A stretch of 44,594 nucleotides of DNA, from positions 1 through 44,594 of the forward strand of contig JAEEUS010000015.1 of assembly GCA_016290615.1 (NCBI GenBank), written 5' to 3'. Position 1 is the stretch's first letter; every line of letters begins with the position of its first letter. The DNA comes from Lachnospiraceae bacterium (GTDB lineage Bacteria; Bacillota; Clostridia; Lachnospirales; Lachnospiraceae). The notes beneath the pieces were generated by a model, which had not been told where the DNA came from, searched no databases, and saw nothing but the letters and a program-made list of their open reading frames with translations. The position numbers and the translations under genes are program-made. Shown one piece after another: positions 4,771 to 40,754 of the stretch.

Positions 4771-4779
4771 TGCTATAAT
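4771..4779 (+). promoter_or_regulatory. Extended -10 (TGC-TATAAT) of the acyltransferase gene; leaderless start predicted
   Basis: TATAAT at 4774-4779 is preceded by TGC, an extended -10, while the -35 position (4751-4756, TAGTGT) is poor. Only seven bases separate it from the ATG at 4787, so the transcript should begin at or within a base or two of the start codon. No Shine-Dalgarno sequence exists. Confidence 0.65.
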
Positions 4780-4786
4780 TAATCTC

Positions 4787-5833
4787 ATGAAACGTTTGGA
4801 TTACTTCGATCTTGCAAAGGGAATAGGAATTTTTCTAGTCGTCCTCGGACATGCGACTTTTGTAAATGAGCATGTCATAACATGGGTCTTTTCATTTCAT
4901 ATGCCTCTATTCTTTATGATATCGGGCATGTTAATGGCTCATAAGAACGAAGAAAATCTTACGATGCGTGAACTTCTTCACAAAAAACTAAAGAGCATAC
5001 TGATCCCCTATCTGTGCTTCAGCATATGCTACAGCGTTATCGATATAATAAGTGTCTTTCTTAAGCAGATCACTCTTTTTGATCTTAAGACCAACCTTGT
5101 TTGTACGGGAACCTTTGCAGGAAGCGGACCGTTGTGGTTTTTAACGACACTGTTTTTTGCTGAGATCCTGTTTTCCCGCCTTCTTAGTCTGCTCGGAGAC
5201 TTCAAGGCTGTTGCCATATCTGTTATTTTATCCATTGTCGGAATATTGACCTGGCATTTCTTTGAGCCCGTATTCAATGCATCAAGAGACGATCTGAGCA
5301 GATTCTTTCTGTTAAGTTTCCCCTTTGAACTTATCCGTTTCGTGATATGCATGAGCTTTATAGCCATTCCCTATATCCTGTACAGACACTTTTTAAAAAA
5401 TATCACAGATAAGAAAGCCATGCCTCTTTTTACAGGGATATTGCTGATGATATCAAATGTCATCCTTTCGCAATTTAACTCAAACATAGACATACATAAC
5501 CTTGACTACGGCAACGTATTCTTATTTATCATAAACGCTTTCAGCGGCTCGTTTGGACTGATCCTTATATGCAGATCACTCCCAACAATCAAGATAATGA
5601 AGCCTGTACTTTTCTGGGGAAGGAATTCACTCACCATAATGGCAACTCATTTAAACTTCTATATCCTCTATCTTGGCGGTGTAGTCGCATATATGATAAA
5701 TCCGTATATCACACGTGCAAAGGAATACATCTTCTTATTTAATATCCTTTTAGTCACAATGCTCATTGAAACGATCCTTATCATTCTTATAAACAGATTC
5801 ATTCCCTGGTCAGTCGGAAAATCACGCAAATAA
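4787..5833 (+). CDS. Acyltransferase-3 family integral membrane protein
   Basis: 348 residues from the ATG at 4787. The start MKRLDYFDLAKGIGIF and LVVLGHATF are the hallmark first helix of acyltransferase-3 proteins, with the conserved His at residue 22. About ten hydrophobic helices follow. The family transfers acyl groups (often acetyl or succinyl) to extracytoplasmic sugars. A TTG nine codons upstream also opens this frame, but it lies before the -10 hexamer and so would not be transcribed. It is the second member of this family in the window. A strong hairpin terminator follows at 5851. Confidence 0.87.
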   Translation: MKRLDYFDLAKGIGIFLVVLGHATFVNEHVITWVFSFHMPLFFMISGMLMAHKNEENLTMRELLHKKLKSILIPYLCFSICYSVIDIISVFLKQITLFDLKTNLVCTGTFAGSGPLWFLTTLFFAEILFSRLLSLLGDFKAVAISVILSIVGILTWHFFEPVFNASRDDLSRFFLLSFPFELIRFVICMSFIAIPYILYRHFLKNITDKKAMPLFTGILLMISNVILSQFNSNIDIHNLDYGNVFLFIINAFSGSFGLILICRSLPTIKIMKPVLFWGRNSLTIMATHLNFYILYLGGVVAYMINPYITRAKEYIFLFNILLVTMLIETILIILINRFIPWSVGKSRK

Positions 5834-5847
5834 ATTTTCGCACTATA

Positions 5848-5882
5848 AAAGGCGGCATCACACGATGCCGCCCTTGTTTATT
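5848..5882. terminator. Bidirectional intrinsic terminator (acyltransferase / purine permease)
   Basis: Perfect 9-bp stem GGCGGCATC (5851-5859) / GATGCCGCC (5864-5872) with an ACAC loop. It is followed by CTTGTTTATTT rightward and TTTTATAG leftward, so it serves both converging genes. Confidence 0.87.
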
Positions 5883-5888
5883 TATTCT

Positions 5889-7310
5889 CTAGACTGCCAG
5901 GAAGAACTTGATAAGGAAGATTGCTGAAATAACATATGTAAGAGCCGAAACCTTCTTAGCCTCTCCCTTTAATACACAGATAAGTGTATAAGAGATGAGT
6001 GCGAGTCCGATGCCGTGTCCGATAGAGCTTGATATCGGCATAGCGATAAGCATTATAGCAACGGGAAGTCCCTGTTCTATATCTTCAAAATCAACCTTCT
6101 TAAGTCCGCATAACATCAGATATCCTACATAGATAAGAGCTGCACTGGTTGCCGGAGGCGGGATAACTGCCGCAATGGGAGCAAGGAACATGCATGCCAG
6201 GAATAATATACCTGTTACGAGTGCTGTAAGACCTGTACGTCCTCCTGCCTCAACGCCTGAAGCAGACTCAACAAATGTTGTAACTGTAGAAGTACCTGTG
6301 CATGAACCTACAACTGTACCAACAGCATCAGAAAGAAGAGCTTCTCTCATGTTGGGCATGTTGCCTTCTTCATCGACCATGCCTGCTCTTGAAGCTGTAC
6401 CTACCAAAGTTCCGATGGTATCAAACATATCTATGATACAGAAAGTGATGACCAGTGTAACGACCGTGAACCAGCCGATCTGTATAAGACCTGCAAAGTT
6501 AAACTTAAACAGTGTAGTTGAGGCCATGTCAGCAAAAGGCGGAACAAAGCTTGCAGTAGCAAGAGATGCAAAAGGATTTGTATCAAAGAATACTGCCTCT
6601 GAGATCCAGTAAACAACAGATGCGATCAGCATACCGATGAGTACTGCGCCTTTAACCTTCTTATGGCTTAAAGTAACGATAGCGAAAAGTCCCACGAACA
6701 TGGTGATTACTGTAAGGACCATCCATCCGTAAGCGCTTCCCATGGTGTCACGAGCATAACTGGGGGTAAGAGCACCGAAGAAATCTCTCATAGCATAGAA
6801 AGGACCGCCTGTCTCTGAATACTGTCCTGCATTTGATCCGACACCGATATTTAAGAGCATAAGACCGATCGAAGGTGCGATTCCGAGTCTGATGCCAAGC
6901 GGTATACCCTCAACTATCTTTTCTCTTATGTTGAGTACCGAAAGGATGATAAATACGATACCTTCGATAAGAACGATACATAAGGCTGCCTGGAATGATT
7001 CGGTATAGCCTAGACCTGTGATACCTACGATATTGACAACTACAACGGCAAAGAAACTGTTAAGTCCCATACCGGGTGCCATGGCAAAAGGCTTGTTTGC
7101 AAGCAGTGCCATGCAGATACAGCCAATACCAGAAGATATGACGGTAGCCAAAAATACCCCGTTCCAAAGCGAACTTCCTACATCAAAATTCGTAAGAAGA
7201 TTGGGATTCAGAGCTATGATATACGCCATTGTCATGAATGTTGTAAGACCGGCGATTATCTCAGTCCTGATGGTGGTATTGTTTTCGTTTAGCTTAAAGA
7301 TTTTCTCCAT
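5889..7310 (-). CDS. pbuG: AzgA/PbuG-type purine (guanine/hypoxanthine) permease
   Basis: 473 residues and about 12 or more membrane segments. The N-terminal TEIIAGLTTFMTMAYII and ANKPFAMAPGMGLNSFFA blocks are diagnostic of the AzgA-like branch of nucleobase permeases. GTCTGTSTVTTFVESASG (about 330-350) is a second conserved block. It likely imports guanine, hypoxanthine or adenine with protons. AAGGAGGAG is best placed for the ATG at 7310; a GTG one codon earlier is also possible. An extended -10, TGC-TATAAT, lies about 40 bases upstream. No purine-riboswitch core is recognisable in the 125-base leader. The substrate is inferred from family only. Confidence 0.88.
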   Translation of the reverse strand: MEKIFKLNENNTTIRTEIIAGLTTFMTMAYIIALNPNLLTNFDVGSSLWNGVFLATVISSGIGCICMALLANKPFAMAPGMGLNSFFAVVVVNIVGITGLGYTESFQAALCIVLIEGIVFIILSVLNIREKIVEGIPLGIRLGIAPSIGLMLLNIGVGSNAGQYSETGGPFYAMRDFFGALTPSYARDTMGSAYGWMVLTVITMFVGLFAIVTLSHKKVKGAVLIGMLIASVVYWISEAVFFDTNPFASLATASFVPPFADMASTTLFKFNFAGLIQIGWFTVVTLVITFCIIDMFDTIGTLVGTASRAGMVDEEGNMPNMREALLSDAVGTVVGSCTGTSTVTTFVESASGVEAGGRTGLTALVTGILFLACMFLAPIAAVIPPPATSAALIYVGYLMLCGLKKVDFEDIEQGLPVAIMLIAMPISSSIGHGIGLALISYTLICVLKGEAKKVSALTYVISAIFLIKFFLAV

Positions 7311-7448
7311 CACGTTCTCCTCCTTTGAATGATTAAGCTAATAAAAATTATAGCACCATCTTTGCAATATAAAAAGTGTTTTAGCCTTTCACTTTTACAA
7401 AAGTTTTTCTTGCTCTTATGAGTAATTAATCAACTGTCAAAAGACAAA

Positions 7449-7480
7449 AAGAAAGTGCCCCTTAATAAGGAGCACCTTGT
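7449..7480 (-). terminator. Intrinsic terminator of the glucuronate operon (after kdgK)
   Basis: Read leftward, GTGCTCCTT pairs with AAGGGGCAC across a 3-base ATT loop (one G-U pair), followed by TTTCTTTTT. It lies about 15 bases after the kdgK stop. Confidence 0.85.
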
Positions 7481-7492
7481 ATGTCAAAAAAA

Positions 7493-8527
7493 TTATCTTT
7501 GCACTCTTCCGCTGCCGTCGCCGCCCATGAGGTTTTCAACCTCTGAGCGTGTGACAAAATTGAAATCTCCGGGAATCGTATGCTTGAGCGCTGAAGCTGC
7601 CACACCGAATTCAAGGGCATCCTGCATGCTCCTTTCATCAAGAAGTCCGCAGATCACTCCTGCCGCAAAGGAATCTCCTCCTCCTACCCTGTCAACGATA
7701 GGAGTTATCGAATATGTCTTTGAATGATAGAATTCTCTGCTCTTTCCGTTCATGATGCATGCAGACCAGCCGTTGTTTGAAGCCGAATACGACTGTCTTA
7801 ATGAGCTTACGATATATTTAAATCCGAATGCATCGGCCATGGCATTAAATACTTCCTCATAGCCTGCAAGATTTAATTCTCCCTTTGTAACATCTGTCTT
7901 AGATGCCTTAAATCCTAGTACCTTTTCCGCATCCTCTTCATTGCCTATGCATATATCAACATACTGCATAAGATCAGTCATAACAGATCTTGCCTTTTCA
8001 CTGCTCCAGAGCTTCTTTCTGAAATTAAGATCCACCGATACCGTAACACCGGCCTTTTTTGCTGCTATTAAAGCCTGCTTTATCAGGTTTGCGGCACTGT
8101 CGCTTATAGCCGGGGTTATACCTGTAAAATGAAACCAGTCGGCATCCTTAAAGATCTCATCAAAATCAAATTTATCAGGTGTTGCCGTAGCTATCGAGCT
8201 TCCTGCCCTGTCATAGATAACATTGCTGGCGCGCATAGCAGAACCTGTTTCCAGAAAATAGATTCCCAGTCTGTCACCGCATCTTGCAATATACTTTGTA
8301 CCCACATTGTATTTTCTGAGGGCAGCGACCGCACTCTCGCCAATTGCCTGGCCTGGAACTGCGGTGACAAATTCCGTGTCATATCCGAAATTTGCCAGTG
8401 ATACGGCTACGTTTGCTTCTCCGCCTCCGTAGCATACATCAAATTCATCGGCCTGTATGAATCTCTCATTATTCGGCGTGGATAATCTTAGCATTATCTC
8501 ACCCATTGTTATAACTTTTTTACTCAT
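7493..8527 (-). CDS. kdgK: 2-keto-3-deoxygluconate kinase (PfkB family)
   Basis: 344 residues. It phosphorylates KDG to KDPG, the penultimate step of hexuronate breakdown. PfkB signatures are present: GEIMLRLS at the N-terminus, YGGGEANVAVSLANFGYD (about 33-50, sugar binding), and DRVGGGDSFAAG (about 288-299), which holds the catalytic base Asp and anion hole. The ATG lies 2 bases after the aldolase stop with AAGAGG in front, so translation is coupled. It is the last gene before the operon terminator. Sugar specificity is inferred from the adjacent KDPG aldolase and UxuA/UxuB. Confidence 0.92.
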   Translation of the reverse strand: MSKKVITMGEIMLRLSTPNNERFIQADEFDVCYGGGEANVAVSLANFGYDTEFVTAVPGQAIGESAVAALRKYNVGTKYIARCGDRLGIYFLETGSAMRASNVIYDRAGSSIATATPDKFDFDEIFKDADWFHFTGITPAISDSAANLIKQALIAAKKAGVTVSVDLNFRKKLWSSEKARSVMTDLMQYVDICIGNEEDAEKVLGFKASKTDVTKGELNLAGYEEVFNAMADAFGFKYIVSSLRQSYSASNNGWSACIMNGKSREFYHSKTYSITPIVDRVGGGDSFAAGVICGLLDERSMQDALEFGVAASALKHTIPGDFNFVTRSEVENLMGGDGSGRVQR

Positions 8528-8529
8528 CT

Positions 8530-9168
8530 CTAACCTCTTATGCTCTTTACAAGTCTTACCGCTTCCTTGGTAAGCTCTGTTATTTTTTCAAAATCTTTCG
8601 AATCGATAAGATCAGCCTTGACCATCCAGCTGCCGCCACATGCAGCGATCTTCTTAAACGAAAGATACTGCTCTAGATTGTCTGCATTTATCCCGCCTGT
8701 AGGCATGAACATTACCGATGTATAAGGCGCTGCCATTGCCTTTATCATAGCAACTCCGCCTGCCTGCTGTGCGGGGAAGAATTTTAAAACCTCAAGTCCT
8801 CTCTTTACTCCCTGTGCAACCTCGGAAGGAGTCATGCATCCGGGAACGATAGGTATATCCTTGTCTATACAGTAATCCACGATCTCAGGATCAAATCCGG
8901 GACTTACGATAAACTTTGCTCCAGCACTTACAGCCCTGTCAACCTGATCTATGGTAAGCACCGTTCCTGCGCCTACCATCATATCGGGATATTCCTGTGA
9001 CATTATCCTGATAGCTTCCTGCGCCGCATCGGTCCTGAAAGTAACTTCGGCACACTTAAGTCCGCCTTCGCATAAAGCCTTTGCAAGAGGCTTGGCATCT
9101 TCTGTTTTATTGATCACAACCACCGGTATCACACCGTAGCAACATAAATCCTGTAATGTCTTATTCAT
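8530..9168 (-). CDS. eda: KDPG aldolase (2-keto-3-deoxy-6-phosphogluconate aldolase)
   Basis: 212 residues, a usual length. It splits KDPG into pyruvate and glyceraldehyde-3-phosphate. The Schiff-base Lys is in LKFFPA (K129) and the catalytic Glu in EVTFRT (E41). GAGTV and PTGGI are the phosphate-binding blocks of this class I aldolase. GGAGAAT precedes the ATG. It is packed between the acetylesterase gene and kdgK. Confidence 0.94.
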   Translation of the reverse strand: MNKTLQDLCCYGVIPVVVINKTEDAKPLAKALCEGGLKCAEVTFRTDAAQEAIRIMSQEYPDMMVGAGTVLTIDQVDRAVSAGAKFIVSPGFDPEIVDYCIDKDIPIVPGCMTPSEVAQGVKRGLEVLKFFPAQQAGGVAMIKAMAAPYTSVMFMPTGGINADNLEQYLSFKKIAACGGSWMVKADLIDSKDFEKITELTKEAVRLVKSIRG

Positions 9169-9181
9169 TTGATTCTCCGTA

Positions 9182-10867: not shown

Positions 10868-10881
10868 ATCCATACCCCTCT

Positions 10882-23607: not shown

Positions 23608-23636
23608 TTGTTGTAAGCTTTATAATTTGATAAAAT
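23608..23636 (+). promoter_or_regulatory. Promoter of the first LacI-like/GGDEF gene
   Basis: TTGTTG (23608-23613), 17-base spacer, TAAAAT (23631-23636). The downstream TAAAATTATTA is identical to that at the paralogous gene (32056). A GTG lies exactly six bases after the -10. Confidence 0.7.
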
Positions 23637-23678
23637 TATTAAGTGACATATCTTTTGTTCATGAGGCATAGTACAGGA

Positions 23679-25574
23679 ATGAGGAAACGTATCGGATTGA
23701 TAATTGGCGAGACCGCCAACGAATACTGCATGACGTTGATTGACAGCATCTACAAGGAAGTCCTTGAACTGGATTACGATATTTTTGTCTTTGTCAACTA
23801 TGGCATATATGATCACAACATAGCTCTTTACGGAGAAGGAGAATCTTCTGTCTACAAGATCCCCGTCCCCGATTCTTTTGACGGCTTCATAATCGATGAA
23901 ACGCTTTTTAATATAGATAAGATGGGTGAAACAGTGTATGACTATTTCACCAAGAACGTCAAGTGTCCCATCGTCTATCTCAAAAAGAGAACAGAACGCT
24001 TCTACGACATGCTCCTTGCCGACAGGCAGGCCATTAAAGACATCACCAATCATTTCATAAAAGATCACGGCTTTACAAACATCTGTCACATGACGGGCAG
24101 ATGGGAGCTTCAGGATGCCCGCGACAGATTCCGCGGATATGAGGAAGCAATGTCAGAAGCCGGCCTTGATGTCACCGATGACATGATATTCTACGGAGAT
24201 TACTGGTATAACAAAGGAGCTGAAGCGGTCGATTTCTTTACTCACGGCGGCAGTGATCTTCCGCAGGCGATAGTCTGTGCAAATGATTACATGGCTCTTG
24301 CAATATGCAAAGAGCTTACAAAAAGAGGTATACGCGTTCCCGAAGATGTCTGCGTCTCTGGCTATGACAATGAGGAGAGCGGTCAGCACAGCGATATCCC
24401 GATAACGACATTTGACGGGAATATTCCGGAGTTTGGCCGCATGGCTGTTTTGACACTGCATGCGGCGATAAACGGAGAATGTCCTCCGAAGGAGACCTTT
24501 GTTCCGAGCAAGATGATCCTAAGAAACAGCTGCGGATGCCGTATATGTACCGTAAAGGATAAGGTACATTTTGACGTTCAGAGACTGAATCAGAAATATC
24601 AGGGACTGGATATGGTCGTTTATATGTACAACGGCTTCCAGATGTCTCTAGATATAGAGGATATCTTCTCAAACGCAGATGCATACTTCAAGCACAATGA
24701 AGCTTCTTATTCATATATCTGTCTTTGTGAAGATGCTCTAAATGCCACAAAGCGTTCGGTTGAACAGACCAACGAATATACCGACAAAATGATCCTAAAG
24801 AGGATATTTTTCAGGGATGAGAACAACTGCTACGAATCACCGGATCTATCCTTCTCAAGAAGAGATCTTCTTCCAGTGCAGTTTTTTGATACGGAAACAC
24901 CTCATATATACTATGTGCATCCTATACATTCGCAGAACAAATGCTATGGATACATGATGTCCGTATATCCTGAAAATTCTGGTCCCAACAACTATACTCA
25001 GGCTTATCTTTCGGCACTCGGAAACGCTCTTGATGAGTACAACGTGCATAATGAATATATGAACATGGAAGAGATCAAATCCATGTATCTTACCGATTCA
25101 CTGACGGGAATATGCAACCGAAGAGGATTTGAGCAGAACATGAACATGATCCTTGACAGATCTAACAGACGTGAGATCTATCTGAGTGTTGCCAGCATAG
25201 ATATGGATGGTCTCAAATACATCAATGATACATTCGGACATGAAGCCGGAGACAAGTGTCTAAAGGCCATGGGACGGGCTCTTGCATCGGTGATCACTCC
25301 CGATGAAGTTGCAGCAAGGTACGGCGGTGACGAATTTGCTGTAATACTCGCATCAAAGAATCCCGACAGGCATCTTACTTTCGAAACAGATCTTATGAGA
25401 GCGATAGAAAAAGAAAATGCCGGCCTGGATGCGCCATATACGCTCCATGCCAGCATAGGTCTTGTTCATGTAGGTACGGGAAGCTATCCCACCCTTGCCC
25501 CTTATATACAGCGTGCCGATAAGCTCATGTACGATAACAAGGCAAGATACAAGGAAAGCCTTAAAAGAAATTAA
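23679..25574 (+). CDS. LacI-like sensor fused to GGDEF diguanylate cyclase (paralogue 1)
   Basis: 631 residues from ATG 23679. N-terminal periplasmic-binding-protein-like sugar-sensor fold without a helix-turn-helix (about 1-270, ending at NSCGC), a GAF-like middle domain (about 280-450), and a C-terminal GGDEF domain. The active motif GGDEF starts at residue 549, and SLTGICNRRGF is the usual entry block. The inhibitory RxxD site is absent. There is no signal peptide or membrane helix, so it should sense cytoplasmic sugars and make c-di-GMP. The start is chosen because it gives exactly the same length and motif spacing as the second paralogue. A GTG at 23643, six bases after the -10, would add 12 residues in a leaderless mRNA. 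It is divergent from gntR. Confidence 0.88.
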   Translation: MRKRIGLIIGETANEYCMTLIDSIYKEVLELDYDIFVFVNYGIYDHNIALYGEGESSVYKIPVPDSFDGFIIDETLFNIDKMGETVYDYFTKNVKCPIVYLKKRTERFYDMLLADRQAIKDITNHFIKDHGFTNICHMTGRWELQDARDRFRGYEEAMSEAGLDVTDDMIFYGDYWYNKGAEAVDFFTHGGSDLPQAIVCANDYMALAICKELTKRGIRVPEDVCVSGYDNEESGQHSDIPITTFDGNIPEFGRMAVLTLHAAINGECPPKETFVPSKMILRNSCGCRICTVKDKVHFDVQRLNQKYQGLDMVVYMYNGFQMSLDIEDIFSNADAYFKHNEASYSYICLCEDALNATKRSVEQTNEYTDKMILKRIFFRDENNCYESPDLSFSRRDLLPVQFFDTETPHIYYVHPIHSQNKCYGYMMSVYPENSGPNNYTQAYLSALGNALDEYNVHNEYMNMEEIKSMYLTDSLTGICNRRGFEQNMNMILDRSNRREIYLSVASIDMDGLKYINDTFGHEAGDKCLKAMGRALASVITPDEVAARYGGDEFAVILASKNPDRHLTFETDLMRAIEKENAGLDAPYTLHASIGLVHVGTGSYPTLAPYIQRADKLMYDNKARYKESLKRN

Positions 25575-27322: not shown

Positions 27323-28426
27323 CTATTTATCCTCTTCATTAACCTTTTCGTCTTCCTTTACATCTTTGCCGTTAAGTTTTGCCATCTCGTCATCATATTC
27401 TTTCTTAAGTCGGATGAACGAGTCTTTGTCTCCGCCGGCATTGTCGGTATGAAAGACTTTTGCGAGCTGTTTATATCTGGCTGTCAGTTCTTCCTTGTCA
27501 CTGCAGCCGTTAAAATACACCGATCTTAATTCTTCCCTTACATACTCCGGATCAAAGACACTTTTAAGCTTGGGATAAACTCTTAACATGTCATTATACT
27601 CATAAAATGTCATCTTTTCTGCAGGTATCTTCTTAAGCTGCTTGAAACGTCTGTAGTCATTTCCGCTTTCCAGAGTCTCTGTTATCATTTTCTTGTCTTT
27701 TAATGAAACAGAATCAATAAGACCGTCAAGATCACGCATCATGTTCATGTAATGCTCTCTGGCAAGAGTAAGTTCATTGGCAAGTCTTGAATATCTTTCC
27801 TGTCGCTTTTCATCTTTTTTTCTGTCCATGATTATCCACAAAACAGCCGATACTATCGCAAGCAGTATACCTATGATCCACTTTAAGACTACGTGCATGT
27901 AGAGGTAATTAGCCCATATGCAGCCGAATATCCACTCAAGCGTTATAAGGGCGGCTATTCCAACCAGTATGCCCGAGATAAATCCGGTGGTCGAATTTCC
28001 CATATCCCTGATCTTTGCAATGCTTCTCTTTCTTACAGACCACAAAGTATAAATTATCATACATATCAGTACTATGGTCACAGAGATCGCTCCAAACAGT
28101 GATCCGGCTTTAAGCTTAAGTATCTTGAATGCACTTTCTCCGACGATCGCACAGCTTAGCATTATAAGACCGACATTTGTCTTGTGATATCTGGATAACA
28201 ATCCCGTTATGATCTCTGAAATGAGAAGACATACCAAAACTATGACTAGCCACGGCCATTGGGGATGTGAACCTACAAATACATCATTTGCAAAATAAAG
28301 AGCTATGATAAGCGCAGCCGTACCGATATATGCCGATGATCTGAATGTTGTATAAAGTTCGGCTATTATCACATATACCGCTATGATTACTACCATTGAT
28401 ATGATCATAACAAGTGTTGGATTCAT
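27323..28426 (-). CDS. Membrane protein with C-terminal J-like domain
   Basis: 367 residues. About seven to eight hydrophobic helices (1-200), a charged helical stretch (about 205-300), and a C-terminal J-domain-like helical pair (KEELTARYKQLAKVFH to RLKKEYDDEMAKL). The diagnostic HPD loop is replaced by HTD (326-328). DnaJ-type J domains stimulate DnaK ATPase through HPD, so this one may be altered or non-functional. AAAGGAG precedes the ATG. It is the first gene of a pair with the DUF4153-like gene, divergent from the YdjC gene. Confidence 0.72.
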   Translation of the reverse strand: MNPTLVMIISMVVIIAVYVIIAELYTTFRSSAYIGTAALIIALYFANDVFVGSHPQWPWLVIVLVCLLISEIITGLLSRYHKTNVGLIMLSCAIVGESAFKILKLKAGSLFGAISVTIVLICMIIYTLWSVRKRSIAKIRDMGNSTTGFISGILVGIAALITLEWIFGCIWANYLYMHVVLKWIIGILLAIVSAVLWIIMDRKKDEKRQERYSRLANELTLAREHYMNMMRDLDGLIDSVSLKDKKMITETLESGNDYRRFKQLKKIPAEKMTFYEYNDMLRVYPKLKSVFDPEYVREELRSVYFNGCSDKEELTARYKQLAKVFHTDNAGGDKDSFIRLKKEYDDEMAKLNGKDVKEDEKVNEEDK

Positions 28427-28471: not shown

Positions 28472-28480
28472 TGTTATAAT
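28472..28480 (+). promoter_or_regulatory. Extended -10 (TGT-TATAAT) of the YdjC gene; leaderless start predicted
   Basis: TATAAT (28475-28480) is preceded by TGT. The -35 position (28452-28457, TACTTT) is weak. Only six bases (CTGCTT) lie between the -10 and the ATG at 28487, with no Shine-Dalgarno sequence. Confidence 0.68.
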
Positions 28481-28486
28481 CTGCTT

Positions 28487-29383
28487 ATGCATAAATTAGA
28501 TTTTCACGCTGATGATTACGGCGTTTCAATAAATAACTCCAAAAGAATAATCGAGCTTATAAGATCCGGCAGAGCTGACAGCATAAGCTTTATTCCCAAC
28601 ATGGGCTGCTTTAATGAATGCATGGCTCTGTTTAAGGATAACTGGGATGCTTTTGAAAAAAAGCCCCTCATATCCATACATTTAAACCTTATCGACGGTT
28701 ATAAGCTTTCTTCAAAAAACTCCCGTGAGATACAAAACAATACCTGGTTTGATCATTTCATCAGATCTCTAATACCCGGCTCTAAGAAAAAAGCTCTTAG
28801 GGAATACTTTGTATCTGAGATCTCCATGCAGATAAAGACTGTATACGATCAGATATGCACCCTCAAGAACAGTGACGGCAATCCAGTTTCACTTCGTATC
28901 GACAGCCATGTGCATACTCATTCGATCCCGTTAGTCTTTGATTCGCTTATAGAGGCTCTTAAAAATCTCGATCTTTTAGAAAAAACGGAATACATACGAA
29001 ATCCCAGAGAGCCTTTTTTAATGTTCTTTACAACAAAAGGAGTCATATCCAAGGTTCCTTTTATCAACATCATCAAAAACATCATTCTTAATGTTCTTGG
29101 TATATCGGTCAATAAGAAGCTTAACAGACTGGGCATATCATCAGGTATAATGTGGGGACTTATGATGAGCGGAAATATGGATGTTGACCGCGTTAATGCC
29201 CTGCTGCCAAAGATGAACAGTCTTGCCCTTAAAAAGGATCTTCATCTTGAGATACTCTGCCATCCCGGTATCGTACTTGAAGATGAAAAAAGGCCCGAAT
29301 ACGGAAAGGACGACCTAGTCGCTTTCTTTTCAAAAAAACGTGATGTTGAATACGATATGCTCATTAATCACATATCCGTCTAG
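28487..29383 (+). CDS. YdjC/ChbG-family carbohydrate deacetylase
   Basis: 298 residues, typical length. The N-terminal FHADDYG has the metal-binding Asp pair, HLNL adds a His, and DSHVHTH supplies the other metal ligands. EILCHPG is the conserved C-terminal block. Family members remove N-acetyl groups from chito-oligosaccharides or related amino sugars. Its neighbour is a YfhO-type membrane protein, so a role in surface glycans is as likely as chitin use. Its TAG stop overlaps the opposing YfhO stop in the palindrome CTAG. Confidence 0.87.
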   Translation: MHKLDFHADDYGVSINNSKRIIELIRSGRADSISFIPNMGCFNECMALFKDNWDAFEKKPLISIHLNLIDGYKLSSKNSREIQNNTWFDHFIRSLIPGSKKKALREYFVSEISMQIKTVYDQICTLKNSDGNPVSLRIDSHVHTHSIPLVFDSLIEALKNLDLLEKTEYIRNPREPFLMFFTTKGVISKVPFINIIKNIILNVLGISVNKKLNRLGISSGIMWGLMMSGNMDVDRVNALLPKMNSLALKKDLHLEILCHPGIVLEDEKRPEYGKDDLVAFFSKKRDVEYDMLINHISV

Positions 29384-31974
29384 ACTTCCTTTGTCCTTCT
29401 TCTATCTATTATATTTAACAGTACTATGCCGATCACAGCTATCAATGTTATGATAGCCCCTTCTGCCATGCCTTCAGGATGATAGCTCATCTCGATTACA
29501 GCATTTTTATCAACGTCTTTAAGCGGTATGAACATGAATGCTTCATATACACATTCAGGCTCAATCTTTTTACCGTTCACCTTGACTTTCCATCCCTTTT
29601 CATAAGGAAATGTCGTCAGTACACCGCCTTCACCCGTATTTTCAATACCCTCAGGCAGTCTTATCTCAAATCTTGAAGATGAGTGTCTGATCACTTCACA
29701 GTCTCTAATGCTCGCTTCTTCATAGCTTTCCTTTAAAGCCTCTGTATCCTCGCTCACAATACAAGCTGTTCCAAATCTGGCATCTTCCGAATCAGATCTT
29801 ACATATATGTCAAACAGTTCACCTTTTTTGTGATATCCGAGATTTAGAATCTTATATGAACCGCTGTTGCCGTAACCAGATATCTGTCTGTCCTCTTCAT
29901 AAATGACAAGATTCTGAGAGTACTCCTGTATATCATCGATATAAAGATAAACATATCCGTCACAGGCTGCCTTGCACATATGGCACATATAAGGCAGATC
30001 ATCCTTTACAAACATCTGACTCCAGAATATATCGTTTAAAAAGATATGATTCTCTTTAGCGTTTATATCGTTATAGATCTTCTCCTGCAGATCAAAAGCG
30101 CGAAGACCACTGTCTGAAGGCTTTTTATCTGTCAGGCATGCCGCACTCAGCGCATACGGATTTTTGTATACTCCCCCGCCAAGATCTGATAACTTCTCAT
30201 AACCGTCTCTGTATCCGTCCGCTCCTACAAGGTATTTAATCGCAAGCAGTGAATCAGAGGTAAATGTATTGTCATGACCAAAATCCGTGTATAATCCGTC
30301 GTCATTATACCCGAGTTTTTGCAGGAAGTATCGTGTATAAAGAAGTCCTGCCGAACTGTAATGGGTTACACCGTTATAGTTATACATCATGTCGTCATTC
30401 TGCTCTCTTGCAGACATGTTCTCCATGTGATAGAAACTCTTATCCTCTTTTGCTATCTCGACTGCTTTTTTCGTTGTTCCTATGATGTTTTCATACTCAG
30501 CCTGTCCGAGCATGTTTATGGAAGTCTGTATCTTATAGATATAGACACTGTTTACCATAAGCTCTAAAACCTGTACGCAGATAAGGATAACAAGAAGCGC
30601 CTTGGCTATATTCTCGGTAATGTCGGTTCTGTGAAATCTTCCCCTGGTCGTCAGTATCACATACAAAAGGAGCATGATGGCTATCGCGCCTATAAGAAGT
30701 GAATTCGTCACTATGAAGCGGGTGTTTATACAGTAGTGACGGCTCGTAAGCGAAAATACAAATAACGCTATCGTTGCAGCTGCAACTAAAAATACTCTTT
30801 TTATATCCACGCCGTCCAGTCTGTTAAAGCATCTGCATGCACATATGAGACAAATAAAAACGTACATATAGGCTTCTCTGTACGGATAGCCTGAAGGTTC
30901 CATTCCCGCATGCCAGATCAGATTGATCCTGTCAAATGCAAAGGACATTATAAAGACTGCCACCATGCATATCATGCAGAGCTTTTCAACGATCTTTATG
31001 TTGCTGTTCATAAGATACAGCAAAACAAGAAATACAATTAGTACTCCCGCATATATGAGCGGTGTCCCGAATATGGCCTCGATGGGTTCGTAAGCCAGAA
31101 ACCACATTTTTACAAATATGCCGTTAAGGTTAAGATTTCCCTTTGTCGTTTCAAGCCCGAGAATAAAAATGTCTTTGGGACTGCCGATAAGTTCAAGAGC
31201 AGTCGGCAGGATTATCACCGCATCAAGACATACTGCCCAGAATGAACACAGGGCAACTCTTATTAGCTTTCCGCTTAAACCTTTTGGATCAGTTATGAGC
31301 CTGTATGCTGTCCACATGACTATGAATATGCATACCATGAATGCCATGTAGTAATTGCACCACAGCATCAGGGCAAGTACTATGATATAGCCTGTCTTGG
31401 CCTTCTTTTCTATCAGTCTGTCAAGCATCAGAATGACGAGCGGCATGAGAGCAAATACATCCAGCCACATGGGATTTACGCTGTTGCTTATCATGTATGC
31501 ACAGTATGTATAGCTTAATGCAAAGATCATTGTCTTTGGATGAACATCGACATTTTTAAGATGATCTTTCTCTGTTATGTAATGAGATAAAAACAGATCG
31601 CAGCTGCCCGCAGACAGTGTGAGCTTTAACCCTATCATCAGAGTTATTGCCATTGGGATCTTTGTTTCATCAAAGAATCTTAAGATAACAAGAAACGGGC
31701 TTGAAAGATAATACGTGAAAAAGCCTACCGCTGCGGAACCAAGTGCTATGGCAGGCGAATAGATGATATTGTTTTCGCCGGATAAAATGGTCTTATAATA
31801 TGAATAAAAATCGGCGTACTGACGCTTCATGTCATATATTAGCCATGTCTTGTCACCGAACGGAGTGATATTGCATGCAATTACAAAGACGCAAAAGAGA
31901 CAGCCCGCAAAAACAGCTGTCATTAACGCATGTATATATGTATTGTTCAACATATCACGCAGTCTTTTGTCCAT
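29380..31974 (-). CDS. YfhO-family multi-pass membrane protein
   Basis: 864 residues from ATG 31974. About 12-13 membrane helices up to residue 490, then a large soluble domain (about 495-835) with YNYNGVTHYSSAG and SLLAIKYLVG, then one final helix. YfhO proteins decorate cell-wall polymers (in Bacillus, lipoteichoic acid) with sugars from lipid carriers; GDKTWLIYDMKRQYADFY is their conserved first loop with acidic residues. An ATG four codons earlier overlaps the predicted -10 hexamer and so cannot be in the mRNA. The gene is divergent from the second GGDEF gene. Confidence 0.85.
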   Translation of the reverse strand: MDKRLRDMLNNTYIHALMTAVFAGCLFCVFVIACNITPFGDKTWLIYDMKRQYADFYSYYKTILSGENNIIYSPAIALGSAAVGFFTYYLSSPFLVILRFFDETKIPMAITLMIGLKLTLSAGSCDLFLSHYITEKDHLKNVDVHPKTMIFALSYTYCAYMISNSVNPMWLDVFALMPLVILMLDRLIEKKAKTGYIIVLALMLWCNYYMAFMVCIFIVMWTAYRLITDPKGLSGKLIRVALCSFWAVCLDAVIILPTALELIGSPKDIFILGLETTKGNLNLNGIFVKMWFLAYEPIEAIFGTPLIYAGVLIVFLVLLYLMNSNIKIVEKLCMICMVAVFIMSFAFDRINLIWHAGMEPSGYPYREAYMYVFICLICACRCFNRLDGVDIKRVFLVAAATIALFVFSLTSRHYCINTRFIVTNSLLIGAIAIMLLLYVILTTRGRFHRTDITENIAKALLVILICVQVLELMVNSVYIYKIQTSINMLGQAEYENIIGTTKKAVEIAKEDKSFYHMENMSAREQNDDMMYNYNGVTHYSSAGLLYTRYFLQKLGYNDDGLYTDFGHDNTFTSDSLLAIKYLVGADGYRDGYEKLSDLGGGVYKNPYALSAACLTDKKPSDSGLRAFDLQEKIYNDINAKENHIFLNDIFWSQMFVKDDLPYMCHMCKAACDGYVYLYIDDIQEYSQNLVIYEEDRQISGYGNSGSYKILNLGYHKKGELFDIYVRSDSEDARFGTACIVSEDTEALKESYEEASIRDCEVIRHSSSRFEIRLPEGIENTGEGGVLTTFPYEKGWKVKVNGKKIEPECVYEAFMFIPLKDVDKNAVIEMSYHPEGMAEGAIITLIAVIGIVLLNIIDRRRTKEV

Positions 31975-31981
31975 ACATATA

Positions 31982-31990
31982 ATCATACCA
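31982..31990 (-). promoter_or_regulatory. Extended -10 (TGG-TATGAT) of the YfhO gene; leaderless start predicted
   Basis: Leftward strand TATGAT (31982-31987) preceded by TGG. Seven bases separate it from the ATG at 31974. The -35 position is weak; a TTGACA at 31995-32000 is too close to pair with it. Confidence 0.58.
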
Positions 31991-32032
31991 CTTATGTCAA
32001 CTCAATACCATGCATATATTTTAGATTTTGTC

Positions 32033-32061
32033 TTGAACTGAACGATATTTTTCTTTAAAAT
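32033..32061 (+). promoter_or_regulatory. Promoter of the second LacI-like/GGDEF gene; leaderless start predicted
   Basis: TTGAAC (32033-32038), 17-base spacer, TAAAAT (32056-32061). Seven bases later is the ATG at 32069, with no Shine-Dalgarno sequence. Confidence 0.78.
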
Positions 32062-32068
32062 TATTACT

Positions 32069-33964
32069 ATGAAAAAAAGAGTTGCATTGTTCGCAAACGG
32101 CTGGACATCCGAAAATCTTGTTAATTTCATAAACGGGCTCACGGGTGATCTTAAAAAGGATTATTGTGACGTCTATCTATTTACCTGTTACAGTTCCTAC
32201 GGTATGGAACCGTCAGAGCGTAAAGCAGAATCCATGATCTATGCCCTTCCGAAGCTTGATTCATTCGATGCCGCTGTCATATTCGGTCCGGGATTAAATT
32301 TTACCGATGATATCGAAATGATATTTTCTTCGATCGAGGAAGCCAAAATACCGGCCATCAGCATCGGTCTGCCTCACGACTCATTTACCTGCATAAGCGT
32401 GGATAACCATCCGGGAATGTATGATCTGTGCAAGCATATGATCGAGATTCACGAAGCAAGAGATTTTGCGTATATCGCCGGTTCTTTAGAAAATGCGGAT
32501 TCAAATCAGCGCCTTTCTATACTTCGCGAATGCATGAGTGATCACGGTCTTGATCCTGACAGCATAGATATCCATTACACTAACTGGGAAGTCGGTACCT
32601 GCAAAGCCGAGATAGACAAGATAATAGCTTCAGGACACTTGCCCGATGCCATAGTATGTGCCAATGATCAGCTTGCGATGCATTCGATCGTAACACTTAA
32701 GGAAGGCGGAATAACTGTTCCTGATCAGGTTATCGTTTCCGGATTTGACAATCTTGCTGAGGGAGAGAATTTCTATCCTGCCATCACTACCGTGGATCAG
32801 TGCTACGAAAGAGTGGGAAAACAGGCTGCATTAAGACTTTCAGCCATCCTTGAAGGAGATAACAGCATACATACGGATCTTACTGACAGTTCCTTTGTTC
32901 CAAAGGAAAGCTGCGGCTGCAATGATTTTGACGGTGATATGGCAAGACGCCACTATGCATACCTTCGTCCGTATTCTATTCAGAAAAACTACGGCATAAC
33001 AGGCAGACTGTTCTCTCTTGAACAGGCGATCTTAAAATCCCAGAGCTACGACGAGCTGTCAAACAACCTTAAACATATATTCAATAACAGCAACGGTTCT
33101 GAGGGCGACACATTTTACATCATGCTCGATCCCGCATTTGAAGATATCGGAAATGATATCCCTCTTCCCTCATATATATACGGTGATGTATTCGATGTGA
33201 CGGTCGGAAAGTTTAAATCGGTCCCGACAAAGGCTCAAAGAGTATTGCGAAAAGATATCTTACCTGAAAGCGATATCATTCCCGAAAACTGTCTCTTTAC
33301 CATGATACCTCTGTACTACGAGACTTTCCTTTGCGGTTATATCGTTTTCGGAGATGCCTTGGCTTCCATATCAGCCATGGATCTGTATCTTTTCAACAAC
33401 AGGATAAACCGTATCCTCATGTTCCTTAAGAGAAACGTACAGCTTAAAGAGCTTAATATCAAGCTTTCGGAACTCATGGATCAGGATGCTCTTACAAGAG
33501 TAAAGAACCGTACGGCATACGAAAAATACTTAAAGAATCTTGAAGCAGACTTCATAGAAGGCGAGAACAAGCCGTTTGCTGTTATATATTTTGACATAAA
33601 CAATCTTAAGATAATAAATGACATGTACGGACACGAGAAAGGCGATGCGTACATAAAGAATTCCTGCAGACTGATATGCAATACATTCAAGCACAGTCCC
33701 GTATTCAGGATCGGCGGCGATGAATTTGTTTCAATAGTTCAAAACGACGACTATGACAACAGACATGAGCTGCTTGCAGGCATGCGTGATCATATGAAAA
33801 TACTTAAAGAAAAAGGTGATTCGGTTCCATTGACCGAGCGTATCTCGATAGCTTCAGGTATGGCGGAATACGACAGAACACTCGATGAGGACTTTGCTTC
33901 GATATTCAAGAGAGCCGATGAGCTGATGTATGAGAACAAATATAATATGAAAAACCCGGGTTGA
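32069..33964 (+). CDS. LacI-like sensor fused to GGDEF diguanylate cyclase (paralogue 2)
   Basis: 631 residues, collinear with the protein at 23679. A sugar-binding LacI-like sensor without DNA-binding domain (about 1-275, ending at ESCGCN), a GAF-like middle region, and a GGDEF domain with intact GGDEF starting at residue 549. DALTRVKNRTAY is the entry block. No RxxD inhibitory site, no signal peptide and no membrane helix. It likely couples an intracellular sugar to c-di-GMP synthesis. The pocket residues differ widely from paralogue 1, so a different ligand is likely. Its last codons lie inside the stem of the terminator. Confidence 0.9.
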   Translation: MKKRVALFANGWTSENLVNFINGLTGDLKKDYCDVYLFTCYSSYGMEPSERKAESMIYALPKLDSFDAAVIFGPGLNFTDDIEMIFSSIEEAKIPAISIGLPHDSFTCISVDNHPGMYDLCKHMIEIHEARDFAYIAGSLENADSNQRLSILRECMSDHGLDPDSIDIHYTNWEVGTCKAEIDKIIASGHLPDAIVCANDQLAMHSIVTLKEGGITVPDQVIVSGFDNLAEGENFYPAITTVDQCYERVGKQAALRLSAILEGDNSIHTDLTDSSFVPKESCGCNDFDGDMARRHYAYLRPYSIQKNYGITGRLFSLEQAILKSQSYDELSNNLKHIFNNSNGSEGDTFYIMLDPAFEDIGNDIPLPSYIYGDVFDVTVGKFKSVPTKAQRVLRKDILPESDIIPENCLFTMIPLYYETFLCGYIVFGDALASISAMDLYLFNNRINRILMFLKRNVQLKELNIKLSELMDQDALTRVKNRTAYEKYLKNLEADFIEGENKPFAVIYFDINNLKIINDMYGHEKGDAYIKNSCRLICNTFKHSPVFRIGGDEFVSIVQNDDYDNRHELLAGMRDHMKILKEKGDSVPLTERISIASGMAEYDRTLDEDFASIFKRADELMYENKYNMKNPG

Positions 33965-35963: not shown

Positions 35964-35965
35964 AC

Positions 35966-37111: not shown

Positions 37112-37117
37112 TATTTA

Positions 37118-38377
37118 TCAGTCAACAAGTACGGGATTTTCAACGACCTTCCAGGGCAGTCCCCATTTGTTAAGTGCTTCCATATACGGATCGGGATCGA
37201 ATTCCTCAACAGTATAAACACCGGGTCTGTTCCACAGTCCGGTAACGACCATCATTGTGCCGATCATTGCGGGAACACCGGTCGTATATGAGATAGCCTG
37301 TGACTCGACTTCCTTATAGCACTCCTGATGATCGCATACATTATAGATATATATGCTCTTTTGCTGTCCGCCCTTTATACCGGTATAAATGCATCCGATG
37401 TTTGTCTTTCCGACTGTTCTTGGTCCCAAAGACGCGGGATCCGGCAAAAGAGCCTTTAAGAACTGGATTGGCACGATCTTGTGACCCTCAAACTCTATGG
37501 GAGTAGTAGACAGCATGCCGACATTCTCAAGACACTTCATATGTGTCAGATAGCTCTGTCCGAATGTCATGAAGAAACGTATCCTCTTTACACCCGGAAT
37601 GTTCTTTGCAAGTGATTCTATCTCCTCATGATGGAGAAGGTACATATCCTTCATACCGACTCCCTCAAAATCATATTCTCTCTTTATGGACATCGCAGGT
37701 ATCTCGATCCAGTGTCCGTCCTCCCAGTATGAACCGGGAGCAGAGACCTCTCTTAAATTGATCTCGGGATTAAAGTTTGTTGCGAAAGGATATCCGTGAT
37801 CACCGCCGTTGCAGTCGAGTATGTCTATCGTATGTATCTCGTCAAAATAATGCTTTAATGCATACGCAGTAAATACCGAAGTAACACCCGGGTCAAATCC
37901 CGTTCCGAGTATGCCCGTAATGCCGGCTTCCTTGAAGCGGTCCATATATGCCCACTGCCATGAGTAATCAAAGTATGCACTGAAGCCAAGCTCCTTGCAT
38001 CTTTTTTCATAAACAGCTCTCCACTTCGGATCATTTGTATCCTCAGCTTCATAGTTGGCTGTATCTATATAAGGAACTTTGCATGCAACGCACGCATCCA
38101 TTATCGTAAGATCCTGATAGGGAAGAGCCAGATTTAACACGGCATCGGGCTTGTAATCATTGATGAGTGCTATGACTTCATCTACCTTGTCTGCATCGAC
38201 TTTTGCCGTTGATATCTTTGTCTTGGTTTTTGAAGAAAGCTTCTCCTTTAATGCGTCGCACTTTGAAACAGTACGGCTTGCGATCATTATCTCATCAAAG
38301 ACCTCGCTGTTCTGACAGCATTTGTGAATAGCGACAGATGCAACACCGCCGCATCCTATAATAAGTACTCTAGCCAT
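37118..38377 (-). CDS. Carboxyspermidine dehydrogenase (saccharopine dehydrogenase-like)
   Basis: 419 residues. The N-terminal Rossmann turn VLIIGCGGVAS binds NADPH. YDFEGVGMKDMYLLHHEEIES and MTFGQSY are shared with CASDH. It joins putrescine and aspartate-semialdehyde to carboxyspermidine. The operon partners NspC and AguA/AguB support this over lysine metabolism. Its ATG overlaps the preceding TAA stop (TAATG). Confidence 0.92.
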   Translation of the reverse strand: MARVLIIGCGGVASVAIHKCCQNSEVFDEIMIASRTVSKCDALKEKLSSKTKTKISTAKVDADKVDEVIALINDYKPDAVLNLALPYQDLTIMDACVACKVPYIDTANYEAEDTNDPKWRAVYEKRCKELGFSAYFDYSWQWAYMDRFKEAGITGILGTGFDPGVTSVFTAYALKHYFDEIHTIDILDCNGGDHGYPFATNFNPEINLREVSAPGSYWEDGHWIEIPAMSIKREYDFEGVGMKDMYLLHHEEIESLAKNIPGVKRIRFFMTFGQSYLTHMKCLENVGMLSTTPIEFEGHKIVPIQFLKALLPDPASLGPRTVGKTNIGCIYTGIKGGQQKSIYIYNVCDHQECYKEVESQAISYTTGVPAMIGTMMVVTGLWNRPGVYTVEEFDPDPYMEALNKWGLPWKVVENPVLVD

Positions 38378-39234
38378 TATTTGTCCTCCTCCTCTTCAAG
38401 AAGATCTTCTACATACTTTGGAAGCATGAATGCACCTCTGTGCAGATTTACTGTATAATACCAGGTCTCTATATGTCTGTCCTTCCAGCGCTTTGCGTCC
38501 AGATCATCAAGCGGATGATACTTCTTTGACGCGAATCCGAACAACCAATATCCGGCAGGACATGTAGCGATATGTGCCTGGTATACACGGCTTACAGGGA
38601 AGCTCTTTACTACCTTTCTGTGCATGCTCCTGCAGGCTTCCTCATCCTCATCAAAGAACGGGCTGCCGTGCTGATATACCATGATACCATCATCCTTTAA
38701 AGCCTTATAGCAGCTTCCGTAGAATTCCTTTGTAAAGAGTCCTTCCTCGTGACCGAAAGGATCGGTAGAATCATTGACGATTATGTCATATTCGTTCTGA
38801 ACGTTTCTTAAAAAATGAAGTCCTTCCATGTAATAGATATGTACTCTAGGATCACTCAGGCCCGCCGTCTGCTCCGGGAAGTATTCCTTGCATACCTCTA
38901 CCATCATCTCGTCAGGCTCTACAAGATCGATGCACTCTATCTCCGGATACTTTGAAAAGCAGGTGGCAACGCCTCCGTCTCCTCCTCCGAATATCAAAAC
39001 CTTTTTGACATTGGGATGGACCGCCATCGGTACATGAGTAACCATCTCATCATATATGAATTCATCAGCTTCCGAAAAGACTATCTCTCCGTCAGATATG
39101 AGCACCTTTCCAAACTCTGGCGTATCCATGACATCAAATCTCTGATAATCGCTCTGAGCAGAATACAGCTCCTTGTTTGTTCTTATCGAAAGCTTTACAT
39201 TATTTGTATGACACTCCGAAAACCACAATTCCAT
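38377..39234 (-). CDS. speE: Spermidine synthase-like aminopropyltransferase
   Basis: 285 residues with a two-domain SpeE layout: N-terminal beta barrel (ELWFSECHTNNVKLS) and Rossmann methyltransferase-like core (GGGDGGVATC, DSTDPFG). Canonical SpeE transfers aminopropyl from decarboxylated SAM to putrescine. Here several residues that are constant in typical SpeE differ: YDEM instead of YHEM, VEPDE instead of VDIDG/VEIDE, and QHGSPF instead of QTESPW. No speD is present. The acidic C-terminus (LLEEEEDK) is encoded by GAGGAGGAGG, which also serves as ribosome-binding site of the next gene. GGGGGAA precedes its own ATG. Activity is uncertain. Confidence 0.85.
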   Translation of the reverse strand: MELWFSECHTNNVKLSIRTNKELYSAQSDYQRFDVMDTPEFGKVLISDGEIVFSEADEFIYDEMVTHVPMAVHPNVKKVLIFGGGDGGVATCFSKYPEIECIDLVEPDEMMVEVCKEYFPEQTAGLSDPRVHIYYMEGLHFLRNVQNEYDIIVNDSTDPFGHEEGLFTKEFYGSCYKALKDDGIMVYQHGSPFFDEDEEACRSMHRKVVKSFPVSRVYQAHIATCPAGYWLFGFASKKYHPLDDLDAKRWKDRHIETWYYTVNLHRGAFMLPKYVEDLLEEEEDK

Positions 39235-39258
39235 TTTGAGTTCCCCCTTTTTTGTTAT

Positions 39259-40719
39259 TTATCTGATCATGCCGTCCAAGACATTAAGATACTCTGCCTC
39301 AAGATCCTCCGTTCCCTGAAGAGAACATCCCTTCTCCTTGGCGTAGAGAATGTAATCAACTATATCCTCTGTTATGCGCTCTCCCGGAGCAAGTATCGGT
39401 ATTCCCGGAGGATAGCACATGATGAACTCTGCGCATATGGAGCCTATGGATTCCTTTATCGGTACCGATTTCTTTGCGCTGTAGAACGCTGTCTGAGGTG
39501 ATACCACCACTTCCGGCTGGATATAATCCCCTGAGATCGACGGAAGCTGTTCTCTTTCATACAGCCTCTTGATATCCGCCAGAGCATTTACCAGTCGCTC
39601 GATATCACGCATCCTGTCACCTATCGATATATATGCGAGGATATTTCCGATATCACCGAATTCTATCTGGATATCGTACTCATCTCTTAAAAGATCATAT
39701 ACTTCTATTCCGGTAAGACCTATCTCCTGTGTATATACAGAGAGTTTTGTAACATCGTATCCGCATACGCTCGTACCGTTTATGAGTTCCGTTCCGTATG
39801 CGTAGTATCCTCCGATGGCATTTATCTCGCTTCTTGCGTATTCCGCCATCTTTATTACCTTGTCAAAAGACTCTTTTCCTCTCAGAGCCAGATTTCTTCT
39901 GGAGATATCAAGGCTTGAGAGTAAAAGATATGATGCACTTGTTGTCTGAGTAAGGTTTACTATCTGTCTTACATAGTCGGCATTTACTCCGTTGTTTGTA
40001 AGAAGCAGAGAGCTCTGAGTCAGGCTTCCTCCGGATTTATGCATGGAGATCGCAGCCATATCCGCACCTGCTCTCATCGCATCTATCGGAAGACCTTCTC
40101 CAAAGTAAAGGTGGGTTCCGTGCGCCTCATCAACGAGCATCTTCATGCCATATTCATGAGCAAGCTCAGTAAGTTTCTTTAGATCCGAACATATGCCGTA
40201 GTAAGTCGGATTGTTTATGAGTACTGCCTTTGCGTGAGGATGTTTTTTTAGCGTCTCCTCCATGGCCTCTGATTCTATGCCCAGAGCTATCCCTATCCTT
40301 GGTTCTGTCTTAGGCTCAACATAAACAGGTATCGCACCGCATAAAACAAGAGCATTGATAGCGCTCTTGTGCACGTTTCTCGGAAGGATGATTTCCTCAC
40401 CGGGTTTGCAGCAGGACAGTATCATGCTCTGAACAGCAGATGTCGTACCGCCTACCATTAGAAATGCATGTTCCGCACCGAATGCATCCGCCGTCAGTTC
40501 CTCTGCCTCCCTTATAACACTAACGGGATGACACAGATTATCGAGCGGTTTCATCGAATTGACATCCAGTCCGACGCATTTTTCCCCTAAAAGCTCAACA
40601 AGTTCCGGATTGCCTCTGCCTCTCTTGTGGCCCGGAACATCAAACGGCACAACTCTCTTCTTTTTAAATCTCTCGAGCGCCTCATATATCGGTGCTCTCT
40701 TCTGTCTCGAAATATCCAT
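39259..40719 (-). CDS. speA: Arginine decarboxylase (Orn/Lys/Arg decarboxylase family, short form)
   Basis: 486 residues, fold I PLP enzyme lacking the N-terminal wing domain, as in Bacillus SpeA. FDVPGHKRG opens the domain. VDEAHGTH (196-203) stacks and binds PLP, and the Schiff-base Lys is K228 in SMHKSGGSL. Agmatine as product is inferred from the downstream agmatine deiminase; ornithine or lysine specificity cannot be excluded by sequence alone. It is the first gene of the operon and has no Shine-Dalgarno sequence. Confidence 0.9.
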   Translation of the reverse strand: MDISRQKRAPIYEALERFKKKRVVPFDVPGHKRGRGNPELVELLGEKCVGLDVNSMKPLDNLCHPVSVIREAEELTADAFGAEHAFLMVGGTTSAVQSMILSCCKPGEEIILPRNVHKSAINALVLCGAIPVYVEPKTEPRIGIALGIESEAMEETLKKHPHAKAVLINNPTYYGICSDLKKLTELAHEYGMKMLVDEAHGTHLYFGEGLPIDAMRAGADMAAISMHKSGGSLTQSSLLLTNNGVNADYVRQIVNLTQTTSASYLLLSSLDISRRNLALRGKESFDKVIKMAEYARSEINAIGGYYAYGTELINGTSVCGYDVTKLSVYTQEIGLTGIEVYDLLRDEYDIQIEFGDIGNILAYISIGDRMRDIERLVNALADIKRLYEREQLPSISGDYIQPEVVVSPQTAFYSAKKSVPIKESIGSICAEFIMCYPPGIPILAPGERITEDIVDYILYAKEKGCSLQGTEDLEAEYLNVLDGMIR

Positions 40720-40725
40720 AACAAA

Positions 40726-40754
40726 TAATTACCATAATAAATAGGTAGTGTCAA
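40726..40754 (-). promoter_or_regulatory. Polyamine operon promoter; leaderless start predicted
   Basis: Leftward strand: perfect -35 TTGACA (40749-40754), 17-base spacer, -10 TGG-TAATTA (40726-40731; a weak hexamer, or AATTAT one base later). Six bases (TTTGTT) then separate it from the ATG at 40719, leaving no room for a leader. Confidence 0.65.

Follow-up and report, generated by a model that had tools for sequence, protein, structure and literature searches.

Promoters abutting start codons predict a small, functionally mixed minority of leaderless genes in a rumen Lachnospiraceae genome

Does a −10 hexamer that lies almost against a start codon indicate an mRNA without a leader? The question is raised by six genes on contig JAEEUS010000015.1 of a Lachnospiraceae bacterium (assembly GCA_016290615.1, 2.9 Mb in 165 contigs). 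The entire contig (C75), with its 44,594 nucleotides, was analyzed and is referred to here as the window. A first-pass annotation had proposed leaderless mRNAs for the six genes, based on −10-like hexamers that end 6–7 bases before a start codon and on the lack of a Shine–Dalgarno (SD) sequence. All six hexamers and starts are indeed present at the coordinates that it gave, and their layout is as follows.

4771–4789, forward strand: acyltransferase gene (Acyl_transf_3), TGcTATAAT at 4771–4779 with TATAAT at 4774–4779, then 7 nt and ATG 4787; predicted leaderless.
23631–23681, forward strand: first GGDEF gene (GGDEF1), TAAAAT at 23631–23636; GTG 23643 rejected as the start, likeliest start ATG 23679.
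28472–28489, forward strand: YdjC-family gene, TGtTATAAT with TATAAT at 28475–28480, then 6 nt and ATG 28487; predicted leaderless.
31972–31990, reverse strand: YfhO-family gene, TGgTATGAT with TATGAT at 31987–31982, then 7 nt and ATG 31974; predicted leaderless.
32033–32071, forward strand: second GGDEF gene (GGDEF2), TTGAAC-17-TAAAAT with TAAAAT at 32056–32061, then 7 nt and ATG 32069; plausibly leaderless.
40717–40754, reverse strand: arginine decarboxylase gene (ADC), TTGACA-17-TAATTA, then 6 nt and ATG 40719; weak −10.

In our reading, to which we assign a probability of about 0.72, several of these genes are likely leaderless and belong to a minority that is small, mixed in function, and specific to the lineage, as in other clostridia, and that forms no special class. 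A recognizable −10 element ends 6–7 nt ahead of the start of the acyltransferase gene, ydjC, yfhO, and GGDEF2, and none of the five ATG starts (these four and ADC) is preceded by an SD match of at least 4 bases. The split between SD-led and SD-less genes is less clean than first proposed, as 11 of the 31 genes called in the window lack a 4-base SD. The encoded proteins carry the Pfam domains Acyl_transf_3, YdjC, YfhO, and OKR_DC_1, and two combine a periplasmic-binding-like sensor with GGDEF. Because the family domain begins so near to the N terminus (residue 5 in the acyltransferase and in YdjC, residue 10 in ADC, and residue 22 in YfhO), the start codons of these four genes are supported. 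Moreover, for all five genes other than GGDEF1, alignment with the closest orthologues begins at the ATG. What is left of the proposal of six leaderless mRNAs is a prediction from the promoter–ATG layout that is well supported for the acyltransferase gene, ydjC, and yfhO, plausible for GGDEF2, and weak for ADC, whose −35 element matches at 6/6 positions and whose −10 element TAATTA matches TATAAT at 2/6 (counted by eye); for GGDEF1 it is contradicted, as discussed below.

The candidate promoters were compared with those of relatives (G001, G008, G011, G013, G014, G015, and G019), in which the upstream DNA was judged by eye; six relatives matched by the window YfhO protein are Lachnospiraceae metagenome-assembled genomes. 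The YfhO-family gene is the best-conserved leaderless candidate of the window. A TG-extended −10 lies 6–7 nt from its ATG in G008, G011, G019, and G015, whose proteins are 89–55% identical, which makes five species together with the window. No adjacent −10 was seen in the 46% identical orthologue of G013 or in more distant orthologues. A TTGACA is also kept 7 bp from the −10 in the same five species (31982–32000 in the window), but it is too near to serve as the −35 element of the same promoter.

For the acyltransferase, five orthologues with >38% identity and a 5′ end were compared (the copies of G014 and G008 lack the 5′ end). The 20-bp promoter core shows no mismatches in G011, G019, and G015 and one in G001, while the proteins are 47–66% identical. 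The gap between −10 and ATG, by contrast, is 7–9 nt in the window genome, G011, and G019 (9 nt in the latter two) and 35 nt in G015 and G001, where it contains an SD-like CGGAG or TGGAG. The G013 gene possesses a different but likewise adjacent element (TGtTACAAT, 6 nt). This near-identical promoter of five species, with 35 nt and an SD-like GGAG in two and 7–9 nt in three, provides a natural comparison of a leadered with a putatively leaderless arrangement. An upstream TTG at 4760 was considered as the acyltransferase start and rejected, as the distance from TTG to ATG is 29 nt in G011 and 27 nt in the window, so that the frames differ. Between metF and the acyltransferase gene, the promoter forms part of a module at 4744–4779, TCTATTATAGTGTATATTGCACAAAAATGCTATAAT, that four sister species share almost unchanged; its inverted ends, ATTATAG and CTATAAT, are perhaps two back-to-back −10 elements. 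No second copy of the promoter core with up to 3 mismatches was found within 1.2 Mb of the window genome.

The layout of ydjC is identical in G014 (91% amino acid identity; this copy contains one in-frame TAA), whereas the gap between −10 and ATG is 30–32 nt in G019 and G011, and no adjacent −10 was seen in more distant orthologues. The leaderless state thus seems evolutionarily labile, with sister species differing in the predicted leader at the acyltransferase gene and at ydjC.

Outside the window, the gene for RarA (MgsA_C domain), found through its G013 orthologue, provides the most extensive comparison. Within the genus, 20 genomes were taken, 18 of them with readable upstream DNA; seven of these feature TAGAAT or TAAAAT at −12 relative to the start codon and two TATAAT at −14, all nine without an SD. 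Within other genera (39 genomes searched, loci cut for 29, and 28 readable), none of the 28 shows an adjacent −10, and an SD of at least 4 bases is present in 25. The rarA orthologues of other genera are therefore mostly SD-led, a contrast that is demonstrated for rarA alone. At both rarA and yfhO, the exact spacing between −10 and start is kept although the flanking DNA differs. A further case is hflX, with TACAAT at −12 in three species (the window genome, G008, and G014), which was not seen by eye in the 8 other orthologues fetched. Finally, TATACT is found at −13 both in the G013 gene for a 1182-residue protein, which matches no NCBIfam family, and in its homologue from the window genome (59% identity over 144 residues in the fetched stretch).

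Whether such placement exceeds chance was assessed on 50 stretches of large contigs from the window genome (960 kb), in which a simple codon-score open reading frame caller identified 788 genes. A −10 was scored as strong if it was an exact TATAAT, or had one mismatch and a TG extension, and lay upstream of a plausible ATG lacking an SD of at least 5 bases. Twenty stretches of the genome had originally been chosen because they contained motif matches. Ten of these, on large contigs, were kept together with the remaining stretches of the same contigs, and the ten on small contigs (L003–L007, L009, L015, L016, L018, and L020) were left out of all sample counts. A first positional profile had omitted all 20 and was thereby biased against a peak.

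A strong −10 occurs at −12 or −13 in 16 of the 788 genes (7 at −12 and 9 at −13), all 16 without an SD match. The expectation is 3.4 genes when based on positions −16 to −25 (Poisson p = 6e-7) and 5.5 when based on positions −26 to −44 (p = 2e-4). When the stretches originally chosen for a motif match are excluded, 12 of 612 genes remain, compared with 2.8 (p = 4e-5) or 4.9 (p = 0.005) expected. When starts were chosen blind to the −10, an element at −12 to −14 was found in 13 of 185 genes without an SD match but was absent from the 186 genes with a 4-base SD and from the 417 with a longer SD. For the SD-less genes, Poisson tests yielded p = 3e-4 with exact TATAAT and wide flanks and p = 0.006 when one mismatch was allowed. 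The −35-like matches of the 16 strong cases average 3.25/6 versus 2.57/6 in shuffles (p = 0.003). After subtraction of background, the layout accounts for ∼1.6% of genes in the whole sample and 0.6% on contigs never chosen for a match. The excess of adjacent −10 elements in this genome is thus real but small, roughly 1–2% of genes at most.

The likeliest alternative, although in our view still an unlikely one, attributes the −10-like hexamers to chance in AT-rich upstream DNA, with the real promoters further upstream and mRNAs that carry SD-less leaders. Several observations weigh against the leaderless reading, and three of them (the elements of ADC and GGDEF2, the count on the unchosen contigs, and the family-wide spacing count) also favor chance. 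The elements of ADC and GGDEF2 are weak or poorly conserved: among the orthologues read, the GGDEF2 layout is common only to G008 (92% amino acid identity), the rest looking operonic or leadered, and the ADC adjacency only to G014 (99%), whereas ADC orthologues at 93% identity have upstream DNA unrelated to that of the window. Adding weaker −10 elements to the count for the whole 788-gene sample gives 25 observed versus 17.8 expected (p = 0.06), and the four contigs never chosen for a motif match show no significant excess (2 of 196 genes versus 0.8 expected, p = 0.19). No clear peak appears in samples from G019 (3 at −12 and 1 at −13 in 346 genes) or G013 (2 at −12 and 1 at −13 in 336 genes). 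Across 60 genomes of the family, the raw count of TGNTATAAT...ATG shows no excess, with 268 matches at 6–7 nt and 275 at 13–14 nt. Most large contigs entered the sample through a motif match, so that the sample is not random; because of this partial choice by motif, we lowered our confidence in the leaderless reading and raised that in chance matches. At rarA, 16 of the 18 genomes of the genus lack an SD of at least 4 bases, including 7 of the 9 without an adjacent −10, and loss of the SD alone therefore does not mean that a gene is leaderless. Moreover, the genes with leaderless transcription start sites (TSS) reported for Clostridium phytofermentans generally also had an upstream TSS and a ribosome-binding site (RBS), according to the relevant part of that report (PMC5171806), and the window genes may likewise possess a second, upstream TSS.

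Chance does not readily explain the excess at −12 and −13 in the larger samples, nor the exact spacing conserved at rarA and yfhO in differing flanking DNA. The raw spacing count was discarded as uninformative; the majority of the ATGs it catches do not begin a gene. In the window genome, the pattern occurs at 191 places (the first 100 of 191 were listed), the raw count being 10 at 6–7 nt versus 7 at 13–14 nt; of the 27 raw matches at 5–9 nt within the window and those stretches of its genome examined at that point, only 10 are plausible gene starts. The search for −10 elements adjoining starts, which the first-pass annotation had suggested, yielded an excess in the sample from the genome itself, but neither significance on the unchosen contigs nor a family-wide excess.

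If the leaderless reading is correct, the promoters would be of the ordinary sigma-A type, mostly with a TG-extended −10, and their placement would direct transcription to start at, or 1–2 bases from, the A of the ATG. The resulting mRNA would have neither leader nor SD. Leaderless mRNAs elsewhere initiate by 70S ribosomes or by AUG recognition that depends on initiation factor 2 (IF2) and tRNA. We infer that transcription of the candidate genes starts at the ATG and that their translation would begin by this leaderless route. Some 1–2% of the genes in this rumen Lachnospiraceae genome have the layout, with no clear theme in their functions; the adjacency is kept across several species at yfhO, rarA, and hflX, while predicted leader lengths change at the acyltransferase gene and ydjC. 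One could go further and speculate that leaderless starts were gained within the genus and then kept by selection at rarA, hflX, and yfhO, whose mRNAs would be translated under other conditions (balance of IF2 and initiation factor 3, pool of 70S ribosomes) than the SD-led orthologues of other genera. We regard this extension as doubtful.

A second alternative, namely wrongly assigned starts with translation actually beginning at a downstream codon behind a leader, holds for GGDEF1 but is very improbable as a general explanation, given the alignment of the other five genes from their ATG and the position of the domains at residues 5–22 in the acyltransferase, YdjC, ADC, and YfhO. In five GGDEF1 orthologues (58–75% identity), the protein is conserved only from the ATG equivalent to 23679 in the window, and the upstream residues are dissimilar. 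Two of the five contain an in-frame stop inside the 12 codons upstream of this ATG, and the 12 codons from GTG 23643 onward are common only to two genomes at 97–98% identity. GTG 23643 is therefore rejected as the start, and ATG 23679 is most likely the true one. As this codon lies 42 nt past the −10, the mRNA of GGDEF1 should carry a leader of ∼36 nt; TAAAAT or TAGAAT elements are located 45–78 nt ahead of the conserved ATG in the five orthologues. The leaderless GTG start proposed at first thus failed a test of protein conservation of the very kind that the first-pass annotation had named.

The 16 strong genes of the sample encode an amidase, an amidohydrolase, two calcineurin-like phosphoesterases, an ABC transporter, a MATE transporter, a BrkB-family membrane protein, an AraC regulator, a RACo-like protein, a DEAD_2/Helicase_C_2 helicase, RarA, HflX, and one GGDEF protein; of the remaining genes, one shows a PMT_2 match below the cut-off and two have no family. 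No shared function is visible, although 16 genes would reveal only a strong bias. The idea of a functional class of leaderless translation, biased toward surface-glycan, c-di-GMP, and polyamine genes, for which one could cite the acyltransferase, YfhO, and GGDEF2 of the window, the GGDEF gene among the 16, and a further GGDEF gene with its −10 at −14, is highly unlikely in view of this functional mixture, the loss of GGDEF1, the differences in leaderless state between sister species, and the 38 matches to a GGDEF2 query in the genome, which let some GGDEF members be expected. These 38 matches also indicate that GGDEF proteins are abundant in this organism.

The window itself was chosen for the feature under study, and for this reason no cluster is claimed. 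Four of its 31 called genes have a strong automatic match, one of which is an internal ATG of the gene at 28426; the three left encode the acyltransferase, YdjC, and YfhO, and GGDEF2 gives a weaker match. Compared with 16 of 788 genes, 4 or 3 of 31 give p = 0.005 or 0.03, uncorrected. Under an earlier rule (4 of 31 versus 13 of 788), p was 0.003, or ∼0.13 when allowing for 66 windows. Local clustering of leaderless starts is thus not supported.

Leaderless mRNAs had been called unusual in Firmicutes, which does not agree with the literature, as far as the relevant parts of the reports go. Leaderless genes were predicted in 56 of 209 Firmicutes genomes, with a mean of 4.2% of genes there (Zheng et al. 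2011, PMC3160421). In C. phytofermentans, itself a Lachnospiraceae, 4% of intergenic sense TSS are potentially leaderless (PMC5171806); in three solventogenic clostridia the figure is 2–3% of transcripts (PMC9045289), and in C. difficile it is 15 genes (PMC7438776). A leaderless minority is therefore a known kind of thing in clostridia. The cases of Zheng et al. resemble ours in a TAtAAT by the start codon, accompanied by a TG element in several of the low-GC genomes, and in a small share of genes, but those in Firmicutes are mainly from Lactobacillales and Mycoplasma, whereas the present genome is that of a rumen Lachnospiraceae. C. phytofermentans, the solventogenic species, and C. difficile show a similarly low frequency in the same class or family, albeit with denominators that differ from the gene share used here. 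Whereas the C. phytofermentans genes generally kept an RBS and an upstream TSS, the cases described here lack an SD and are predicted from sequence. In C. acetobutylicum, RNA-seq found 212 leaderless transcripts among genes with detected proteins (PMC4533764), again leaderless mRNAs in a clostridium, but far more, and partly ascribed to shifted start sites or to trimming under stress. A TSS survey of the mouse gut, with a Lachnospiraceae bacterium among its members, gives 10–15% leaderless TSS for Akkermansia and Bifidobacterium but, in the portion concerned, no value for the Lachnospiraceae. Our literature search found no publication that combines “leaderless mRNA” with “Butyrivibrio.” New here is the comparative picture of one genus, in which some genes retain the adjacency, while at others the leader length shifts and the promoter stays. 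The genus gives a sequence-based answer on leaderless starts, according to which they seem to be rare yet real, with conservation at certain genes.

A minor observation concerns ADC. In its 93% identical orthologues from L206, L195, and L193, a GGGTGGG lies upstream of the start at varying distances, as does, judged by eye, an apparent terminator hairpin.

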